Positions 557-15,231 of a DNA stretch of 64,000 nt are shown in pieces. Below the pieces are notes generated by a model that saw only the letters and a program-made list of their open reading frames with translations, was not told the origin of the DNA and made no database searches. The DNA lies in the NCBI GenBank assembly GCA_034190875.2, contig CM067356.1, positions 48,036,163-48,100,162 on the forward strand. The letters run 5' to 3'. How positions within the stretch are numbered: position 1 is the stretch's first letter; the number at the start of each line of letters is the position of its first letter. The DNA comes from Urechis unicinctus. Lineage: Eukaryota > Annelida > Polychaeta > Xenopneusta > Urechidae. The position numbers and the translations under genes are program-made.

Positions 557-3209
557 CGGTATTCCCATGTACGAATTGAAGGGGGCCTTCAAGGGGGGAG
601 CAGACATTGCGGGGAAGGCTGTTGATATGGTCGGTCAATATCGCAATGTGAGCACAGGGGTCCGGATCTTCCAAGGAATCATACACGCATTGATTTTAGG
701 GATATTTGTGGGGTAAGTCGATTGCTTAGTCAAGCTAACCTTTCCTAGTGTACAAGAATATTAATGATGCTATTTGTTGCCTGTGCATTGCTGGATATGC
801 AAGGCTTGCGTTGAGTTCATGAGAATATAGTCGCTATCAATGCGACTCCTGACCGTTAGAATTCGATCGTTACCATTACAATTCAAGTGCTCTAAAAGCT
901 AGCGTAATGTCCCTAATACCGCTTTATGAATACCTGAAACAATTATTACCCCCCCCCCCCATATATGACTACACGAGAAAACAGACAGGTATCCGATTCA
1001 GGAAGGATAGCGAGTGTTAATGCACGATTATCAAGTTCTAGTAGGTACGAAAATGCAACGGCAGCTTATTGTTTGTCTCGCGATAATAAAGCTTTATTGA
1101 GAAGTTGGTGCATTTAGAAATGCTGCAACATCAGTTTGTGTACTCATTTTAAAACATTTCTTCTAATATTTCAGTGTTGTAATTATTTGGCAAAAGGGCT
1201 ATCAATCCAGTGATACGGCTATTGGTTCGGTAGTAACCACAGAAGTACAAGGCGTGACTTATATCAATTCATCTGATTTTGGAATAGACCCAATCCTGGG
1301 CCTCACTGACCGACTCTGGGACGTCACTGATTTTGTTGTACCACCAATCGTGAGTCGCGGTGCATTCGTTAGAAACAATGATACTCAATTTGTACCCTAT
1401 AGGTTACATACTGACTGCTTATATCCCTAAATTGTAAATTGTGTGTGGTACTAGGAAGAGGAAGCCATCTTCGTTACGACGAATGCAATAATGACCTATG
1501 GTCAGATGCAGGGTGAATGTCCAGAGGTTAGTGAAATAATGATCCATAAATCGAATTAATTACTTATGAAATCCCCATCTGCACATAGCAGGCTGATTAC
1601 GCACGCAATATAGTTAATACGTTAGGGGTTTATACGTGCATGGTATAAATGTATACTGAGTGTGTCTACAGGACGGCAATATACGCAACTCAAGCTGCAC
1701 AATAGATGGCGACTGCATTTCCGGCAAGTCGATGAGAAACGGAAATGGTTAGCATGTAATGTGAATGTGAATAATTCACATACAGAAGTTCATTTAAAAG
1801 TGTTTAACAATATTGTTCATATTTGCATCAGGTGTTCAAACAGGCAAGTGTAATACTACAACCAACACTTGCATGATACGTGCTTGGTGTCCCGTGCAAA
1901 CGAACGAACTCCATGTGTAAGTTAAGAAAGCATTTGAATGTAGCCATCACCAATATAATTACATTCTTCGTAGAAAAATTCAAATTATGGAGGTGAGTAT
2001 CATTTGCCCTTTATTTATATTTTTAATTGAAAATTATTAAAATGCAGTATCCTTTGAGATGGTCTTGATGTTGTAGTGAGAACGCCACTTTGTTTCAAGA
2101 TGCCAAGAATTTCAAGATTTTGATCAAATCTACGATCTTGTTTCCTAAGTTCAACAAGACATTGTAAGTGACATACAAAGTTAAATACCTCAATTTACAT
2201 AGTTGTCGTGGTTGGCTCTCTCTTTCTTGAGTTTATTATGAGGTACGAATTTTCAGACGGAATATCATAGACACACAAGACCCGAAGTACCTCGAAATGT
2301 GTCTTTTTGACAAGGAAGACAAAGTACATTGCCCCGTGTTTACGCTGGATACAATTGTAAGGGAAGCAAACGAAGACTTCAATAGCGTCGCAATCCACGT
2401 ACGTGTATCATTACAACCCTCTACACAATCCCTTTTTTGTGCATAACAGCCGCAACTGAACACAATTACAATTATGCAGGTCGAATTGTTAAGGTTTTCT
2501 ATGTTTTCTTATAATTATATTTGCACTGTCTGTTCTTGGAAAGGGAGCTGCGTTTGCAATAGATATCGACTGGAAGTGTAATTTCGACAGCTCAGATCCT
2601 TGTTTACCTAAATATGACTTCAGACGATTGGATTTGAAGAAAGCTAAAATCGCCAAGGGTATGAACTTTAGGTAAAGCAAAGGTTATGTGTGAGGTCATA
2701 TCTGCGAATGTTCTCTTATTTATCCATGTTACGCACAAGATCGGGTGGTATTTATAATGTTATTATTTAAATGCTAATTTGATTCCAGATATGGCCATTA
2801 CTACCATGATAGCGAATTCACAAAGCGTGACCTTATCAAGGCATTTGGTGTCCGGTTTTTCATTCACGTGACTGGAGAAGCCTCCAAATTTGATGTAATT
2901 AAAACGATCGAAATCATTGGCAGCGGGCTGGGACTGGCCATAGCGGTAATCGCTTTATTCGTGTAAATCCTTCCTTTTTCGATGTAAAGCGCAAATGTGA
3001 CATATATTAACTGCTGCAGTATTGATGATGTGAATTTGTGCAGGTTGCTGCTGCTTTTAAGTTCACACATCAGGTTTATCGACTGCTGTGCTGACAAGTG
3101 TGGTCTGCAAATACCTGATTCCTGTTGTAAGAGCAATTTTCTATGTATCTATGGTATGATTGTTACATGTGAAGCAGGCTATTATCTTTATTTTACTTCA
3201 ATATTTTAG
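557..3209 (+). CDS. P2X-type ATP-gated cation channel (purinoceptor), 11 exons
   Basis: P2X subunits assemble as trimers into plasma-membrane cation channels opened by extracellular ATP. Exons in phase: 557(ATG 567)-712, 1175-1349, 1455-1526, 1672-1747, 1832-1916, 1974-1992, 2081-2163, 2257-2398, 2544-2671, 2789-2962, 3044-3209, joining to 421 codons with a stop at 3207-3209. TM1 is at residues 33-54, followed by WQKGYQ (54-59) and RLWDVTDFV. The ectodomain has exactly ten cysteines (129, 140, 146, 163, 170, 176, 234, 244, 278, 286), as in the family, plus GKC, WCPV, LIKST, FPKF, NFR (307-309), LIKAFGVRF (324-332) and SKFDVI before TM2 (about 349-372). N-glycosylation sequons occur at N80, N137, N164, N192 and N216. 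Odd points: the usual lysine pair after TM1 reads EVQ (72-74), the expected threonine aligns to K203, and the N-terminal Y-x-T-x-K motif is not obvious. Least certain are the start (ATG 567 versus an upstream exon), the 19-bp exon 6 and the last exon. Confidence 0.92.
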
Positions 3210-3987
3210 AATTTGTGTTAAAACGTTATGATACCAAGTATTTTAAAGCAGGTAATATAATTGTGGTGCTTAAATATTGAGATTGGGTAGGTGGTGGTGA
3301 TTTGTAGGGTGTGAGTGCATATATGTTAAATGTTTAAGTGTAAGCGAAAAAGTGTGCGTGTTGTACAAGTTGTATATTATAGAAATAGCAAGAAACATTG
3401 TTGTTATGTTTGTTTTTGGCAGCTTTCTACGAATCGGATAAAACCACTGAGACATGAATCAGAAATTGGAACAGATTACTACCTGTATTGAGGCAATTAA
3501 TTGCTTCTGTAATTTGTCCAATAATGAATTTGTTTATCCAATAATTATTTCATTGAAAGTACGTCGAAAATATTTGCCACTAAGACACCAATCTGATTAT
3601 CATGGTGGTTCTGCTTAAACAATTACTGGCGGATTGCGAAACAACATTATTTGCAAAATGCTATACTGTTTTATATATAAGATAGAACATCGAAGTCGAA
3701 TAGCAGCAATTAATCTGGTTACCTGTTAATAACACATGAAAACGATCTACTATCCTTGCTGTTGTAGTGGACAAGTTTCATAAGTATATGTGAATATCGA
3801 CTAAGACGTTGGGAACTTAACCGGAATTCAGATATACTGGCCTCTTATGCCTGGCAGGCCGACCTAGTCCTATTTAGACAGAAATCTATTTGTATTCCCA
3901 CTTCTCGTATACTCAGATATATACGAGCAAGTATATTATGAAACTTTGATGATTGTGCTTGTACTCAATGAAGCATTGATATGTTTA

Positions 3988-4189: not shown

Positions 4190-5855
4190 GACAGCTGTTA
4201 GGGATGGGGTGAGTGATGTCGGCAGTAGAGCAGGGCTGGGAGCTGTTAGGGATGGGGTGAGTGATGTCGGCAGTAGAGCAGGGGTGGGAGTTGTAAGGGA
4301 TGGGAAGAGTGATGTCAGCAGTAGAGCTGTTAGGGAGCATGGGCTAGGGAGCTGGGAGCTGTTAGGGATGGGACGAGTGATGTCGGCAGTAGAGCAGGGC
4401 TGGGAGCTGTTAGGGATGGGACGAGTGATGTCGACATGTAGAGCAGGGCTTGGAGCTGTTATGGGGTGAGTGATGGGGTGAGGGTGATAAGGGTCGATGT
4501 CGGCAGTAGAGCAGGGCTGGGAGCTGTTAGGGATGGGGTGAGTGATGTCGGCAGTAGAGCAGGGCTGGGAGTTGTAAGGGATGGGAAGAGTGATGTCGGC
4601 AGTAGAGCAGGGCTGGGAGCTGTTAGGGATGGGACGAGTGATGTCGTCAGTAGAGCAAGGCTGGGAACTGTTAGGGATGGGACGAGTGATGTCGACAGTG
4701 GATTAGGACTGGGAGCTGTTAGAACTGGGAGCTGTTAGGGATGTGGTGAGTGATGTCGGCAGTGGATTAGGGCTGGGAGCTGTTAGGGATGGGGTGAGTG
4801 ATGTCGGCAGTAGAGCAGGGCTGGGAGCTGTTAGGGCTGGGAGCTGTTAGGGATGGGGTGAGTGATGTCGGCAGTAGAGCAGGGCTGGGAGGTTAGGGAT
4901 GGGAGCAGTGTTAGGGATGGGGTGAGTGATGTCGGCAGTAGAGCAGGGCTTGGAGCTAGGGATGGGGAGCTGTTAGGGAGGGATGAGTGATGTCAGCAGT
5001 AGAGCAGGGCTGGGAGCTGTTAGGGATGGGGACGAGTGATGTCGGCAGTAGAGCAGGGCTGGGAGCTGTTAGGGAGGGATGTGGGGTGAGTGTAAGGGAT
5101 GGGAAGAGTGATGTCGGCAGTAGTGAGCGCAGGGCTGGGAGCTGTTAGGGATGGGGTGAGTGATGATGTCGGCAGTAGAGCAGGGGGCTGGGAGCTGTTA
5201 GGGATGTTAAGGGGGTGAGAGTATGTCGGCAGTAGAGCAGGGGTGGGAGCTGTTAGGGGGATGTTAGGGATGGTGAGTGATGTCGGCAGTAGAGCAGGGG
5301 TGGGAGCTGTTAGGGATGGGAAGAGTGATGTCGGCAGTGGATTAGGGCTGGGAGCTGTTAGGGGATGGGGTGAGTGATGTCGGCAGTAGAGCAGGGCTGG
5401 GAGCTGTTAGGGATGGGGTGAGTGATGTCGGCAGTAGAGCAGGGCTGGGAGCTGTTAGGGATGGGGTGAGTGATGTCGGCAGTAGAGCAGGGCTGGGAGC
5501 TGTTAGGGATGGGGTGAGTGATGTCGGCAGTAGTGAGCAGTAGGCTGGGAGGAGCTGTTGGGGATGGGGGTGAGTGATGTCGGCAGTAGAGCAGGGGTGG
5601 GAGTTGTAAGGGATGTGAAGAGTGATGTCGGCAGTAGAGCAGGGCTGGGAGCTGTTATGGATGGGACGAATGATGTCGGCAGTAGAGCAGGGCTGGGAGC
5701 TGTTAGGGATGGGGTGAGTGATGTCGGCAGTAGAGCAAGGCTGGGAGCTGTTAGGGATGGGGTGAGTGATGTCGGCAGTAGAGCAAGGCTGGGAGCTGTT
5801 AGGGATGGGGTGAGTGATGTCGGCAGTAGAGCAGGGCTGGGAGCTGGTAGGGACG
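4190..5855. repeat. 48-bp minisatellite, about 34 units
   Basis: Tandem units read approximately GGGGTGAGTGATGTCGGCAG then TAGAGCAGGGCTGGGAGCTG and TTAGGGAT. The period is 48 bp, with variants carrying TGGATTAGG in place of TAGAGCAGG and local indels, most of them at 4900-5300. Because 48 is a multiple of three, long stretches stay open on both strands (16-residue units such as DGVSDVGSRAGLGAVR). The + strand is G-rich; each unit carries the hexamer TTAGGG and a splice-donor-like GGTGAGT. The array starts about 200 bp after the P2X polyadenylation signal and ends where the LINE 5' region begins. A coding role is unlikely because units go out of frame repeatedly. Confidence 0.95.
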
Positions 5856-6173
5856 ATATAGTGCAAGCTTATCATAATCGGAAGCGGAAACGGACATAAC
5901 CTTGACGCAAGGCACACATTTTCTGTGTGCTACAATTTTGGACTTTTTAGCGTATTTCTGGTTACAACGTCTAAATGTAACCCGCCACATGGATATATAA
6001 TGGTGGCGAGAAGACCATAGTGAAGTGTTATAGGCTTACAGTGTTTCCAAAAAGCGAAAATTGCAACTTTTGTGTACACCTGAAGTCAACGTTATCTACA
6101 ATTTTCTGTCAAGCAGCGCACCATTTCCCCTCTACAGCCGGACCAGGCGAGACTACCAGTTATATAATCTCTA

Positions 6174-6863
6174 ATGACCACAAGGTGGCCGAGAAGTCTA
6201 TCGCGAAGCATGGGCCTGGAAATGGATGAATTTATTAAAGGACTTAAAGCCGCTCTCAGTGACACTGCGGTCATTGAGACTTTAAGGTCCACAATTTGTG
6301 ATCCATTGCACAAAGAAATCACTGCGCTGAAAGAAATAATAAAGAGAAAAGACGACTCCATTGAACGACTAGAAAAACGGGTGCTCGGTCTTGAAACTCA
6401 AGCCGACACTCTTGAACAGTATACTCGCAGGAACAGTCTTAGGATTTACGGCATTCCTGAACATAAACATGAGGACTGTTGTGAAGAGATAATAAAACTT
6501 GTGAATAAGGATCTCAATATGTCTCCACCAATCACAACATCGGACATCGACAGGGTGCACCGAGTCGGCATACCGCCGACAGAAAGCAGACCTGGATCCC
6601 GTCCTGTCATACTGAAACTGGCGACATACAGAATACGTGAGAAAATCTACAAAAAGCGGACCAGTCTAAGACATTGTTCCACGCCGATCTTTATTAACGA
6701 GGATTTGACCAAAACACGCTCCGAATTACTTTGGAAAGCAAGACAGCTGAAAAAGAACGGAAAAGTAGCCGACACTTGGACACATGATGGAAAAGTACTC
6801 GTGAAAGATTTGAAGGCGAAAATCCTCCATATACGCGAGATGACAGATCTCGAGAAACTGTGA
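6174..6863 (+). CDS. LINE ORF1: coiled-coil and RRM-like nucleic-acid-binding protein
   Basis: This 229-residue frame starts at ATG 6174 and is intact. Residues about 45-80 are rich in Lys/Glu/Leu heptads (EITALKEIIKRKDD, LEKRVLGLETQADTLEQ), indicating a coiled coil for multimerisation. The part from NSLRIYGIPE onward (about 85-180) resembles the RNA-recognition fold of LINE-1-type ORF1 proteins, and a basic C-terminal region follows (KTRSELLWKARQLKKNGK). In related elements this protein binds the element RNA and acts as a chaperone. A nearby in-frame Met (residue 13 or 17) could be the real start. ORF2 begins 100 bp downstream in a different frame. Confidence 0.8.
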   Translation: MTTRWPRSLSRSMGLEMDEFIKGLKAALSDTAVIETLRSTICDPLHKEITALKEIIKRKDDSIERLEKRVLGLETQADTLEQYTRRNSLRIYGIPEHKHEDCCEEIIKLVNKDLNMSPPITTSDIDRVHRVGIPPTESRPGSRPVILKLATYRIREKIYKKRTSLRHCSTPIFINEDLTKTRSELLWKARQLKKNGKVADTWTHDGKVLVKDLKAKILHIREMTDLEKL

Positions 6864-6963
6864 AATAACGTTGTACGAAACCGCCTTTATGTAAGTCTCA
6901 TCACCATTCTTTATATCCATATATTGTGTACTATTTACACCAGCACTACCATTTTGTACACTT

Positions 6964-9900
6964 ATGGAATCAACTATAAGATCACATTTGTGTATCATAT
7001 GTAACAAACGTGCGCACATTCATTCCTTTTATCTAAAATGTTCCATATGTTGTCGGCTTACTCATTTAAATTGTCTGTCACAAGTATGTAGAAATGATTC
7101 ACTATACACCTCCAGAAAATGCAACAATTGGTTTTGCGTTAACTGTGTGCAATGTATATTCCCATTTAATCATTTTAATGATGATAGAGACTTTATGGAT
7201 GCTATTAATGATATTGTGGAATGTGGGCCACATAACATGGCAAATGTAGAGGGCATGATTTTGAATGTACATGAACTTAATGATACTGAACAAGACAATC
7301 CGCTGTCCGCTTTTGATCCAGATATGAATTACTACAATGGAAATCAAAAAGACTATGCCATAGCAAACTGTAATTATTATGTAGAAGATCAATTCAACGC
7401 ACTTTGTAAAGCTTCTCAGGTTAACTCTGATATGTTATCTCTTATGCACGTGAATATTCGCAGTGCTCAAAAAAACTATGCCAATCTTGATGCCTATATT
7501 AATTCTTTGAAATATTCATTTGACATTATTGCTCTCACTGAAACATGGCTGACAGATATAACAGTTGGCAATTTTAGTCCAGCCGGCTACAATACAGTCA
7601 ATTATTACAGAACAAATAAACCAGGTGGAGGGGTGTCTCTCCTGATTAATGATCAATTACATTATCGTAATAGAGATGACCTCTCGATCTGCAACTGTAA
7701 TATTGAATGTGTTTTCGTTGAAATTCCTAAATGTACGTCTCTCCAATCTCACAATAATCGTAAGAATATAATAATTGGTGCAGTCTATCGACCACCGAAC
7801 ACTTCAATCAGTGACTTCATAGATTATGTATCTGATATAATGTCTACTATAAAGCATGAAAACAAAATCTGCTATTTAATGGGCGATGTAAACATTAACT
7901 TGTTAAATGTAGATACCCATGTCGCTACAGCAGAATTCCTTGAAATGATGTATTCTTTCGCTTTTACCCCACTCATTACCAAACCCACGAGAGTAACAAA
8001 TCGTTCCGCCACACTTATAGACAATATTTTTACCAATTTTCAACCACAGCACAATTATATATCCGGTATTTTGTGTACAGATGTAAGTGACCATTTTCCA
8101 GTGTTCTGTATCGACCACGGCATTAAAACTAATACTGAATGTGACCAATTCTACTACAGACAAATCTCGCCCCGAAAAGTAGATAAATTCGCTGCGAAAC
8201 TTGGAAAAATTGAATGGAGGGATGTTTTAGACACCAATGACGCACAGGAGTCATACACAAGGTTCTATTGTACTCTTAAAGATCCATACAATGCATGCTT
8301 CCCAATTCAACTATCAAAATCGAAATATAAACATCGATATAAATGGCTAACATCGGGACTTAAACAATCTATCAAAGTAAAAAATAAATTGTATATAAAA
8401 AGCATCAAATACCCCACGCTGACCAACCAAACACAATACAAACGCTACAAATGTAAATTGCGTTCACTAATGAAGACCTGTGAACAAAACTACTATGAAA
8501 ATGCCTTTTCTAAAAACAAAAGTAACATGAGGAAGTCGTGGGAGTTGATTAAAAATGTCCTAGATAAGAAAAAGCAGACCAAACTATCAGAAGAATTCAT
8601 CATTGATGGTAAAACTACCACTGATAAAAAATTAATTGCTAACAAGTTCAACCAATTCTATCTAAATATAGGACCTACGCTTGAAAAACAGATCCCTGCT
8701 TGTAATGCAGATGTTCTTAAATATTTAAAGTATACGAATGCTGACTCTATATTTATTAGAAACACAGATGAAATAGAGGTAACTAATATAGTAAAATCCC
8801 TGAAACCATAATAAACAGCACTTTAACACACATTATAAAACCCTTAGTTCACACGCTTAACATGTCACTTATAAGTGGAATTATTCCAAAAGAACTAAAA
8901 ATCGCTCGAGTTATACCAATATTTAAAAATGGCGACTCCTCTCAGATTAGTAATTATAGACCAATATCAGTTCTTCCGTGTATTTCTAAAATACTAGAAC
9001 GACTCATGCATACACGACTTACTGAATATATATGTAAGCATGATATATTATATAACTATCAATTTGGTTTTCGTAAAAAACACAGTACCACTCAAGCTAT
9101 AAGCTACTTGGTTGATAAAATTATTAATGCTCACGAAGAACATAAAAATGTTTTAGGGATTTTCATTGATCTAAGTAAAGCGTTCGACACCATCAATCAC
9201 CGTATTCTTATAAGAAAATTGGAACACTACGGCATTAGAGGCATCGCATTAGAGTGGATAAAAAATTATTTGCTCGAAAGATACCAATATGTTACTTACA
9301 ACGGTGTCCACTCTGAACGAGGGCGTATTACTTGTGGCGTTCCACAAGGCTCAATCTTAGGGCCACTCTTGTTTTTAATCTAGTCAATGACATTGTTAAT
9401 GTTTCGAAATGTATGCATCCTATACTGTATGCAGATGACACTAATATGTTTGTAACTGGTAATAACATTGATGATATGATAAACTGTGCAAATGTGGAGC
9501 TTAAAAATTTAGTACTATGGCTGAATGCCAATAAGCTTTCGTTGAATGTCAACAAAACACATTACCTGATATTCGCACCTGGGCGCTATAGCCCAACACC
9601 AACTCAACCACTTTATATCAATAATCAGGTTATAAGGAGAGAGAACTCGACAACCTTTTTGGGAGTCAAGTTAGATAGCAAATTGACATGGCAGTCTCAC
9701 ATTCAACATATAAAATTGAAAATTGCTAAAAATATCGGCTTACTTTGTAAGGCGAAAAATATTTTTAGAACAAGTACCTTAAATACTCTGTATTATTCGT
9801 TTATATACCCATACATAATATATTGTCTCGAAGTTTGGGGTACAGCTGCAAAGAAATATACAAACTCTATTGTCAAATTACAGAAACTATGCTGTAGAGT

Positions 9901-10261
9901 AATTACCGGTTCGCCAAAGCGCACATGTTCATTGACATTATTTAAATCCTTAAATATGTTACGTTTTACTGAGTTGTATGAATATTGTATCATGTTGTTT
10001 ATGTTTAAGTTATATAGAGGTGATTTGCCTAATGTTTTCAAATTAATGTTTCGACGAAAATCCTCTAATCAAACAATTACTACAAGACAATCTAGACATT
10101 TTATTGTACCGTTATTTAAATCGAAGGTTGCCTATAATAGCGTGCGCTCGAAAGGCGTGAATATCTGGAACGCAAATTGCACTAAGTTTAATGTATATTG
10201 CTCATTGCATTCTTTTAAAATAGCTCTTCGAATTCATTTTCTTGCTAAATACGTTGTATGA
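6964..10261 (+). pseudogene. LINE ORF2: Cys/His finger, AP endonuclease and reverse transcriptase, broken twice
   Basis: The frame from ATG 6964 starts with a Cys/His finger (CIIC, CSICC, HLNC, CNNWFCVNC; residues about 9-60). An AP-endonuclease-like domain follows at about 155-395 (HVNIRSAQ, ALTETWL, GAVYRPP, GDVNI, SDHFP). This segment stops at 8809-8811, just after the start of the RT region. Comparison with the family suggests a deletion of roughly 15 codons plus a frame change there. The RT continues in another frame (8820-9383: IPIFKNGD, NYRPISVL, QFGFRKKHST, FIDLSKAFDT, GVPQGSILGPLLFL), and a 1-bp deletion near 9381 shifts it again. The last segment (to 10261) carries the catalytic YADD box and the LINE C-terminal region. 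The functional product would copy element RNA at a nicked target. Confidence 0.92.
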
Positions 10262-13859: not shown

Positions 13860-15231
13860 TTAAAGAGATACTCGCGCAATTCATGCGACGCCTCGCGGAC
13901 CTGATAATTTGCCACCAAGAACGACTACTCCGCAAGGTGCAGCAGCGGTTTTTAACGTATGGAGTGATTTCCCTTTATAACTTCCGTTTGTAAACAAAAT
14001 TTGAAAGAAAGAAAATATAACGACAAAGAGGTGAAACGACGGTGGAAAGGACGGTTTGTAAAAAGAAGGCAAACGTGCTAGACTCCAAACTTTATCAAAT
14101 ATAGCCAGCAATTCAGCGGGGAATTTGACGGAGAGCGAACATGAGCCACAGATCGAATCAAACGTATCGGCGGAAAGTGGGTGGGGTATTGGCAGGAGAA
14201 TTGTTGAATTTGGTCATCTTGCTAATCAGTTGAAATCGTGCAAGAACTGTTATAATCCGCTATATCTGCACAACACTACAAAAGAACAGCGTGTTGGATA
14301 CGCTAGTATTCTGTACATTGAATGTGACTGTGGAATAATGAATTCAATAACCACGGGAAAGAGTCACATACCTCCAGACAAGTTGAAAAAAAGGATGCCA
14401 GTGTATGACATAAACACCAAAGCAGTGCTAGGTAATTTTAATAAAAAACAATCACAACAAGTGACACATAATAAGAGTGGGACAGGAAGACTAGCCCGGT
14501 TGCTGAGTGACAATACCTGTGGTGCTCCGAGGGTCACAGCCAACAAGAAAATTATTGAAACAATTCGGAACTATTTTCTTTTAAATTAGTTGCTGACTAA
14601 CACAAATTCAAGGAACTCAAACAAAGCAAAGTATACTCTGTATTTGTAATTTTGACCTAGTGTTAACTTTTCTTATCAAATTGCCAAACAAAGCTGCGTT
14701 TATTTGCTACAAATGCATGATGACCCCCTATTTTTATTTTTTTTCTGGATGTATATTGAATGAAGTTGATACAGGTGAATTTTCAATAAATTCTTATAGC
14801 AAGTTTTCATTTTATGATGATTTTTTTCATAAATATGTGTCCGAAAATACAAAATCCCGATATTCATATTGACGATCCAGAAAAGAATGAACACTAACTT
14901 TCTATATTTTTTGCAATATATGTGATTATCTTTTATTTATTAAGAATTTATTAGTATAATGATTCAAAATGTTAAGGATTTTATAAAGTGGCAATGACAG
15001 TCTTCATGAAAAATAAATGTTATAGTAATCTGACCTTGTGTTGTCTAACACTGTACCAAAACTGGCCGATTTGACCGATACACATACTTTTTGAAAACAA
15101 TTTAAAAAAAAAATAAACATGGTGACCCCAGGTTTTCTTTTCACTATTGAGATGATATGGGGTTAAAGGTAATATCTGCAATTTTTTATCCAATTTCTAT
15201 TATGCTATCATTTGAGTGAGTATCTCTTTAA
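13860..15231 (+). mobile_element. DNA transposon remnant with terminal inverted repeats (Mutator-like)
   Basis: The left end TTAAAGAGATACTCGCGCAA at 13860 is matched by the reverse complement of the right end at 15211-15231, with 14 consecutive identical bases and 18 of 21 overall. The 1.37-kb interior contains a Mutator-like transposase N-terminal fragment on the + strand. That is too little for a full transposase, so the element is internally deleted or non-autonomous. I found no convincing target-site duplication. The inverted repeats are short for classical MULEs, so the superfamily call rests on the protein fragment. Confidence 0.65.
14062..14589 (+). pseudogene. Mutator-like transposase N-terminal fragment
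   Basis: The open frame runs from about 14062 to the TAG/TAA-bounded end at 14589 without a clear ATG; an adjacent frame upstream reads a basic stretch (KRRWKGRFVKRR), suggesting a frameshift near 14060. The recognisable core reads GRRIVEFGHLANQLKSCKNC, then NPLYLHN, GYASILYIECDCG, TTGKSH and DINTKAVLGNF. This is the zinc-ribbon-like start shared by Mutator-like transposase proteins of invertebrates (two C-x2-C/C-x-C pairs, then the D-INT-A-G motif). The DDE catalytic part is missing, and the tail after residue 105 does not match the family. Confidence 0.65.

Follow-up and report, generated by a model that had tools for sequence, protein, structure and literature searches.

How is a P2X channel gated when K70, K72 and T189 of its ATP site have been replaced? 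The gene raising this question lies at 557-3457 of the window, by which we mean the whole stretch of 64,000 nucleotides of Urechis unicinctus DNA analysed here. It was modelled as 11 coding exons with GT-AG introns throughout, encoding 400 amino acids from an ATG at 567. An initial annotation had placed the receptor at 1207-2163, an interval that does lie in the gene but, starting inside exon 2 and stopping at exon 6, takes in just a portion of this model. Exon boundaries were set from GT-AG introns and reading phase, and splicing is thus a prediction from genomic DNA. A spliced-alignment script reproduced the boundaries, which is a consistency check only, since the query was the gene's own protein. 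The predicted exons are as follows.

557..712 (+): exon 1, encoding the N-terminus (from ATG 567) and the beginning of TM1, translation ending GIFVG, no YxTxK/R motif
1175..1349 (+): exon 2, end of TM1, TTEVQGV (K70E, K72Q) and a conserved stretch to FVVPP
1455..1526 (+): exon 3
1672..1747 (+): exon 4, with cysteines of the head domain
1832..1916 (+): exon 5, head domain cysteines, canonical donor gtaagt
2077..2163 (+): exon 6, NFKILIK, T189K, K193 retained
2257..2398 (+): exon 7
2544..2671 (+): exon 8, ending within the arginine codon of NFR; N296, F297 and R298 equivalents retained
2789..2962 (+): exon 9, encoding K321 (equivalent to K316) and the first half of TM2; a second possible donor, after 2945, is the homologue of the one in the paralogues
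3044..3126 (+): exon 10, remaining half of TM2 and a Cys-containing juxtamembrane tail, conserved TM2 Asp absent
3423..3457 (+): exon 11, C-terminal end ...SFYESDKTTET with the stop codon, placed by splice phase alone

A candidate 19-nt exon at 1974-1992 was rejected: it required a non-GT donor to keep the frame, and splicing directly from exon 5 (end 1916) to exon 6 (2077) is canonical. An additional exon upstream of 557 is possible, as an acceptor-like cag precedes this position and the frame is open upstream to a stop at 402. The cysteines directly after TM2 (CC...C, within 3044-3126) are loosely reminiscent of the Cys anchor described for P2X7 (PMC7016195), and the last exon holds a YxxxK string (YESDK), possibly by chance. 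Directly after the gene, a minisatellite occupies 4193-5853 (48-bp unit with GTTAGGGATGGG, 26.8 copies in the main array). It is followed by a LINE-type retrotransposon at 6168-10261, with an ORF1-like protein, an endonuclease and a reverse transcriptase, the second ORF being broken across frames, and by a Mutator-like transposase fragment at 14062-14589 (Pfam PF20700, E=4.6e-11).

Judged by its predicted protein, the gene is clearly a P2X receptor. The protein matched Pfam PF00864 (P2X_receptor) with E=1.9e-103 and 346.7 bits (cut-off 27), covering profile positions 16-345 of 361, and its best solved relative was human P2X4 (E=1.7e-79). Among the 35 distinct solved sequences found at E<=0.001, 34 are named P2X purinoceptor and one (5f1c) is named uncharacterised protein. 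We take 5f1c to be the tick P2X receptor. The ten structural cysteines initially reported as intact are all present in the ectodomain of the 400-residue model, in P2X order (C129, 140, 146, 163, 170, 176, 229, 239, 273 and 281), and TM1 has a hydropathy of 2.46.

Contact residues are numbered here as in zebrafish P2X4. Alignments with human and zebrafish P2X4 bore out the reading V-T-T-E-V-Q-G-V at residues 69-76 of the model: E and Q face K70 and K72, no lysines were found at shifted positions, and E-V-Q-G stands where the K-x-K-G motif is expected. T189, which contacts adenine, is replaced by K. In the five HMMER alignments displayed, out of 35, the lysines of K-x-K stand opposite E and Q, and K stands opposite the threonine of N-F-T (a motif that reads R-F-T in one engineered human entry). 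A six-sequence MAFFT alignment again yielded K70E, K72Q and T189K, with K193, N296, F297, R298 and K316 retained. The initial annotation had named the right residues for the replaced threonine and the retained contacts, but its numbers (K203, K207, N307-F308-R309 and K326) are five too high; in the window protein they are K198, K202, 302-304 and K321. This offset likely stems from extra sequence between exons 5 and 6. The N-terminal YxTxK/R motif is also absent from the model, insofar as exon 1 is the true start. Both this motif and an aspartate in TM2 are described as features of ATP-gated P2X receptors (PMC3853471).

When the genome from which the window comes (1,190,315,542 bases in 926 contigs) was searched for the family, with 25 of 25 candidates scored, 15 exon matches were obtained in at least four P2X loci, all on contig C15, and these locus counts may be lower bounds. 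The combination of E-V-Q and T189K is present in three of the four loci found. At contacts 70/72/189/193/296/297/298/316 the window gene reads E Q K K N F R K; the other three loci are listed with their residues at the same positions.

C15, about 48,032,035-48,034,193 (L009:4035-6193): tandem copy, shortly before the window begins; E Q K K S F K R
C15, near 15.86 Mb (L012, about 5169-8130), minus strand: distant copy, 32 Mb from the window gene; E Q K K N F K K
C15, near 66.66 Mb (L011): canonical copy; K K T K N F R K

Relatives with the E-x-Q change, a possibility raised in the initial annotation, thus exist as paralogues. TTEVQGV and FKLLIK occur in both the tandem and the distant copy, and the E-V-Q codons lie in the same exon at all three loci (GAA-GTA-CAA in the window gene, GAA-GTG-CAA in the other two). 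The stop codon of the tandem copy ends at C15:48,034,193, 2.5 kb before the ATG of the window gene at 48,036,729; this copy has a weak exon 1 (donor gtttga) and a short Cys-containing C-tail ending in CGCADA. The distant copy is probably a pseudogene, given an in-frame TAA in exon 9 and an exon 1 so degraded that none is recognisable. The canonical copy reads TTKLKGV and NFTVLIK, with FFEYDTPK at its N-terminus, ATVLCDIVVLY in TM2, and YQEKK. A 2021 study of Aplysia reports that molluscs and annelids have single P2X genes and that duplicated ones occur in groups including hemichordates and echinoderms (PMC7943599). Relatives were also sought in prokaryotic genome contigs and viral contigs and none were found, which carries little weight because these collections hold no animals.

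In a tree of six sequences (306 columns), the three E-x-Q copies formed one clade (aLRT 100), within which the tandem and distant copies grouped together (94.1). A single origin on the stem accounts for the E-x-Q change. This stem measures 0.47 substitutions per site, compared with 0.20 for the canonical copy. Nei-Gojobori estimates were dS 0.77 and dN 0.23 for window and tandem copy, dS 0.97 and dN 0.24 for window and distant copy, and dS 0.48 and dN 0.18 for tandem and distant copy. The resulting pairwise dN/dS of 0.25-0.38, at dS 0.48-0.97, indicates purifying selection, as an average over time that is also compatible with recent decay. Between the window gene and the tandem copy, exons 2-9 do not differ in length (175, 72, 76, 85, 87, 142, 128 and 157 nt, the last to the homologous donor), that is, 922 nt without an indel despite strongly diverged silent sites. 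The distant copy shares the lengths of exons 3-9, and its exon 2 has 172 instead of 175 nt.

The replaced residues 70 and 72 lie within a segment of 37 amino acids, TTEVQGV...FVVPP, that is unusually conserved among the three copies. The three pairs are identical at 34, 35 and 35 of its 37 positions, as against 175, 167 and 177 of 270 elsewhere (62-66%), with Fisher P-values of 5.5e-4, 2.6e-5 and 1.1e-4 that are flattering, since the borders were picked after viewing the alignment. In the two pairs that involve the distant copy, one codon of the 307 compared is non-homologous; it lies outside the segment. Recent gene conversion was considered as a source of the shared E-x-Q and rejected, because silent divergence is alike inside the segment (pS 0.46, 0.54 and 0.32) and in the rest (0.46, 0.54 and 0.37). 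As a background for the ATP site, we used the 116 ectodomain columns in which human P2X4, zebrafish P2X4 and the canonical copy agree, eight of which are ATP-site positions. The window gene has changed in 26 of these columns, the tandem copy in 27 and the distant copy in 34. ATP-site positions were altered above background only in the tandem copy (6/8 vs 21/108, P = 0.002), and neither in the window gene (3/8 vs 23/108, P = 0.38) nor in the distant copy (4/8, P = 0.23). Thirteen of the 116 columns had changed to one and the same residue in all three copies; this shared replacement was enriched at the ATP site (3/8 vs 10/108, P = 0.045), a result that is suggestive, not strong. The change in the window gene appears to mark a conserved clade, which makes the observation stronger than first stated.

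The TM2 end of the gene is less clear. The frame is open, as the initial annotation had it, but the TM2 junction is ambiguous between donors after 2945 and after 2962, and both splice forms are predictions. The donor after 2945, homologous to that of the paralogues, would give a short, truncated TM2 (hydropathy of the best stretch 1.86) with a stop codon not far beyond it. The non-homologous donor downstream, after 2962, would give a fully hydrophobic TM2 (2.86) and the Cys-containing tail, in which DCCADKCG is in frame with DRPAKKCG of the tandem copy. Up to a shared GAC codon, exon 10 measures 37 nt in the window gene, as against 36 nt in the tandem copy; one of the two has therefore shifted, and the extra nucleotide puts the homologous splice of the window gene out of frame. 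TM2 hydropathy is 1.78 in the tandem copy, 1.71 in the distant copy and 2.47 in the canonical copy. The conserved TM2 aspartate is missing in all three E-x-Q copies.

Published mutants indicate what the replaced residues may mean for ATP gating. A review describes K-x-K-G as a highly conserved P2X motif and K70 as the position with the largest alanine effect on ATP potency (PMC3874471). At the K70 equivalent, human P2X1 K68A shows a more than 1800-fold loss and K68R is non-functional, as is rat P2X2 K69A (PMC3874471); oocytes with rat P2X2 K69C gave no response to 100 μM ATP and in some cases very small currents at 1,000 μM (PMC3480388). At the K72 equivalent, the effect in human P2X1 is 5-fold for K70A and 18-fold for K70R; in rat P2X2, K71A brings a major decrease, and K71C a 1000-fold effect or a non-functional receptor (PMC3874471). 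T189-equivalent mutants of human P2X1 lose 6- to 8-fold, the alanine mutant 6-fold (PMC3874471), and rat P2X4 T186A and T186V gave no ATP current, the serine mutant giving current (PMC5362899). An ATP-competent homomer of the window subunit is unlikely in light of these mutants, chiefly those of K70. The initial suggestion that the channel responds poorly to ATP, uses another ligand or acts only in heteromers is compatible with this conclusion, but the sequence does not choose among the three.

T189 and the K70 backbone are placed on subunit B of the intersubunit site (PMC3866589), and thus it is the part of the B face with K70, K72 and T189 that has been replaced in the window gene. The face offered to the neighbouring site (N296, F297, R298 and K316) is intact there, which is the asymmetry that an auxiliary subunit would need. 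We put forward, tentatively and at somewhat under an even chance, that the three copies represent a duplicated P2X clade without this part of the ATP site, the homomers of which are probably ATP-insensitive and which may serve as auxiliary subunits. The clade arose by lineage-specific duplication from a canonical P2X gene, as the tree of six sequences shows; on its stem K70, K72 and T189 became E, Q and K, and this state has since persisted across two or more later duplications. Judging from the published mutants, such subunits should form a homotrimer that has no competent ATP site. The most likely mechanism would be co-assembly with the canonical P2X subunit, the gene of which lies elsewhere on the contig. 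In such a trimer the window subunit would lend its intact N296/F297/R298/K316 face, its own K70-face site being dead. Two of the three sites would then work, and gating and permeation would be altered, in the manner of a non-binding auxiliary subunit. Activation is reported to be possible in receptors with one non-functional site, and one study cited in the same source holds that three ligands are required (PMC3866589). E70 and K189 share the lower-body wall of the pocket and might conceivably form a salt bridge. Several points tell against the auxiliary subunit. Two of the three changes, those of K72 and T189, are milder in human P2X1, and the ATP site of the window gene is not altered above background. 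The TM2 aspartate and, in the model, the YxTxK/R motif are lost, and a full TM2 would need the non-homologous donor. The distant copy has a stop and no recognisable exon 1, the tandem exon 1 is weak, and the face asymmetry is complete only in the window gene: R298 has changed in the distant copy, and the changes of N296, R298 and K316 in the tandem copy do not fit a donor of that face.

Other explanations have to be weighed against this one. That the gene model or assembly is at fault, and that another exon 2 encodes K-x-K, is scarcely credible: genomic DNA is the sole material and splicing is predicted, but GAA-GTR-CAA stands in the same exon at three separate loci, which contradicts an artefact as far as DNA allows. 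An alternative K-x-K exon 2, raised as a possibility at the outset, was looked for in the window and about 18 kb upstream; a six-frame motif scan gave four matches there, none in P2X context, and tblastn over the same region recovered exon 2 of the window gene and of the tandem copy and no other. Outright loss of function, in which duplicates freed from ATP gating kept a constrained ectodomain for a time and are now decaying, the pore helix first, is somewhat unlikely. It would account for the missing TM2 aspartate, the low TM2 hydropathy of the tandem and distant copies, the out-of-frame homologous splice, the stop and eroded exon 1 of the distant copy and the excess of ATP-site changes in the tandem copy. 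It is opposed by the exons conserved without an indel against the tandem copy and with a single 3-nt difference against the distant one, by the low dN/dS at dS 0.5-1.0, by the ten ectodomain cysteines of the window gene and by the full hydrophobic TM2 within reach of the downstream donor. The original verdict of not simple decay is compatible with these findings, but decay stays alive because the TM2 aspartate and the YxTxK/R motif are lost and the splicing of TM2 is ambiguous, points that the initial annotation had overlooked, along with the tandem copy just beyond the window.

Alternatively, the pocket may have been repurposed, E70 and K189 together with the retained K193, R298 and K316 binding some other ligand, perhaps zwitterionic or not a nucleotide, by which the homomer is gated. 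We regard this as quite unlikely. The fixation of E, Q and K in three copies, with E and Q inside the unusually conserved segment, speaks for it, as does the opposite charge at 70 being accompanied by a new lysine at 189. The sequence suggests no ligand, however, and the other face varies (N296S, R298K and K316R in the tandem copy), contrary to a common new ligand site. The most far-reaching possibility, which we consider decidedly improbable, is that of a natural P2X subfamily with a rebuilt pocket (K70E/K72Q/T189K) held by selection and a P2X-type pore gated by a non-ATP signal; its members would be non-purinergic representatives of the P2X fold.

In the parts of the open-licence P2X literature that were searched, we found no description of a natural P2X without K-x-K. 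On the sequence evidence, the family is known, the variant with K70, K72 and T189 replaced would be new, and the mechanism is not settled. Such a paralogue clade, having dropped K-x-K and conserved what took its place, would represent a P2X that is ATP-blind by nature. With it one could test P2X subunits as silent partners or with another ligand, and also which parts of the ectodomain are constrained apart from ATP binding.

Compared with vertebrate P2X4 (human 9bqh, zebrafish 3i5d/4dw1), the window protein shows the family match over residues 33-364, the ten ectodomain cysteines and the WDV, CPV/CPI, NFR and LIK motifs. It differs in K70E, K72Q and T189K, in the absence of the TM2 Asp and, in the model, of a YxTxK/R N-terminus, and in eight extra residues before RLWDV that are also present in the canonical paralogue. 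With this paralogue it shares 190 of 377 aligned residues, equal lengths of exons 3-6 and the GI.PI.G.TDR stretch; unlike the window gene, the paralogue retains K-x-K, NFT, the N-terminal YDTPK, CDIVVLY in TM2 and YQEKK, and NFR and K316 are kept as well. Mammalian P2X6 and P2X5 resemble the window gene, by description only, in a plausible role mainly in heteromers. P2X6 probably retains K-x-K. Homomers of P2X6 and P2X5 are described as poorly functional, and wild-type P2X6 rescues ATP-site-defective P2X2, so that P2X6 itself seems to contribute ATP sites (PMC3866589). Another parallel, loss of the same lysine, is found in the engineered mutants P2X1 K68A/R and P2X2 K69A/C; these are laboratory-made, whereas the E-x-Q state is natural, common to paralogues and conserved.
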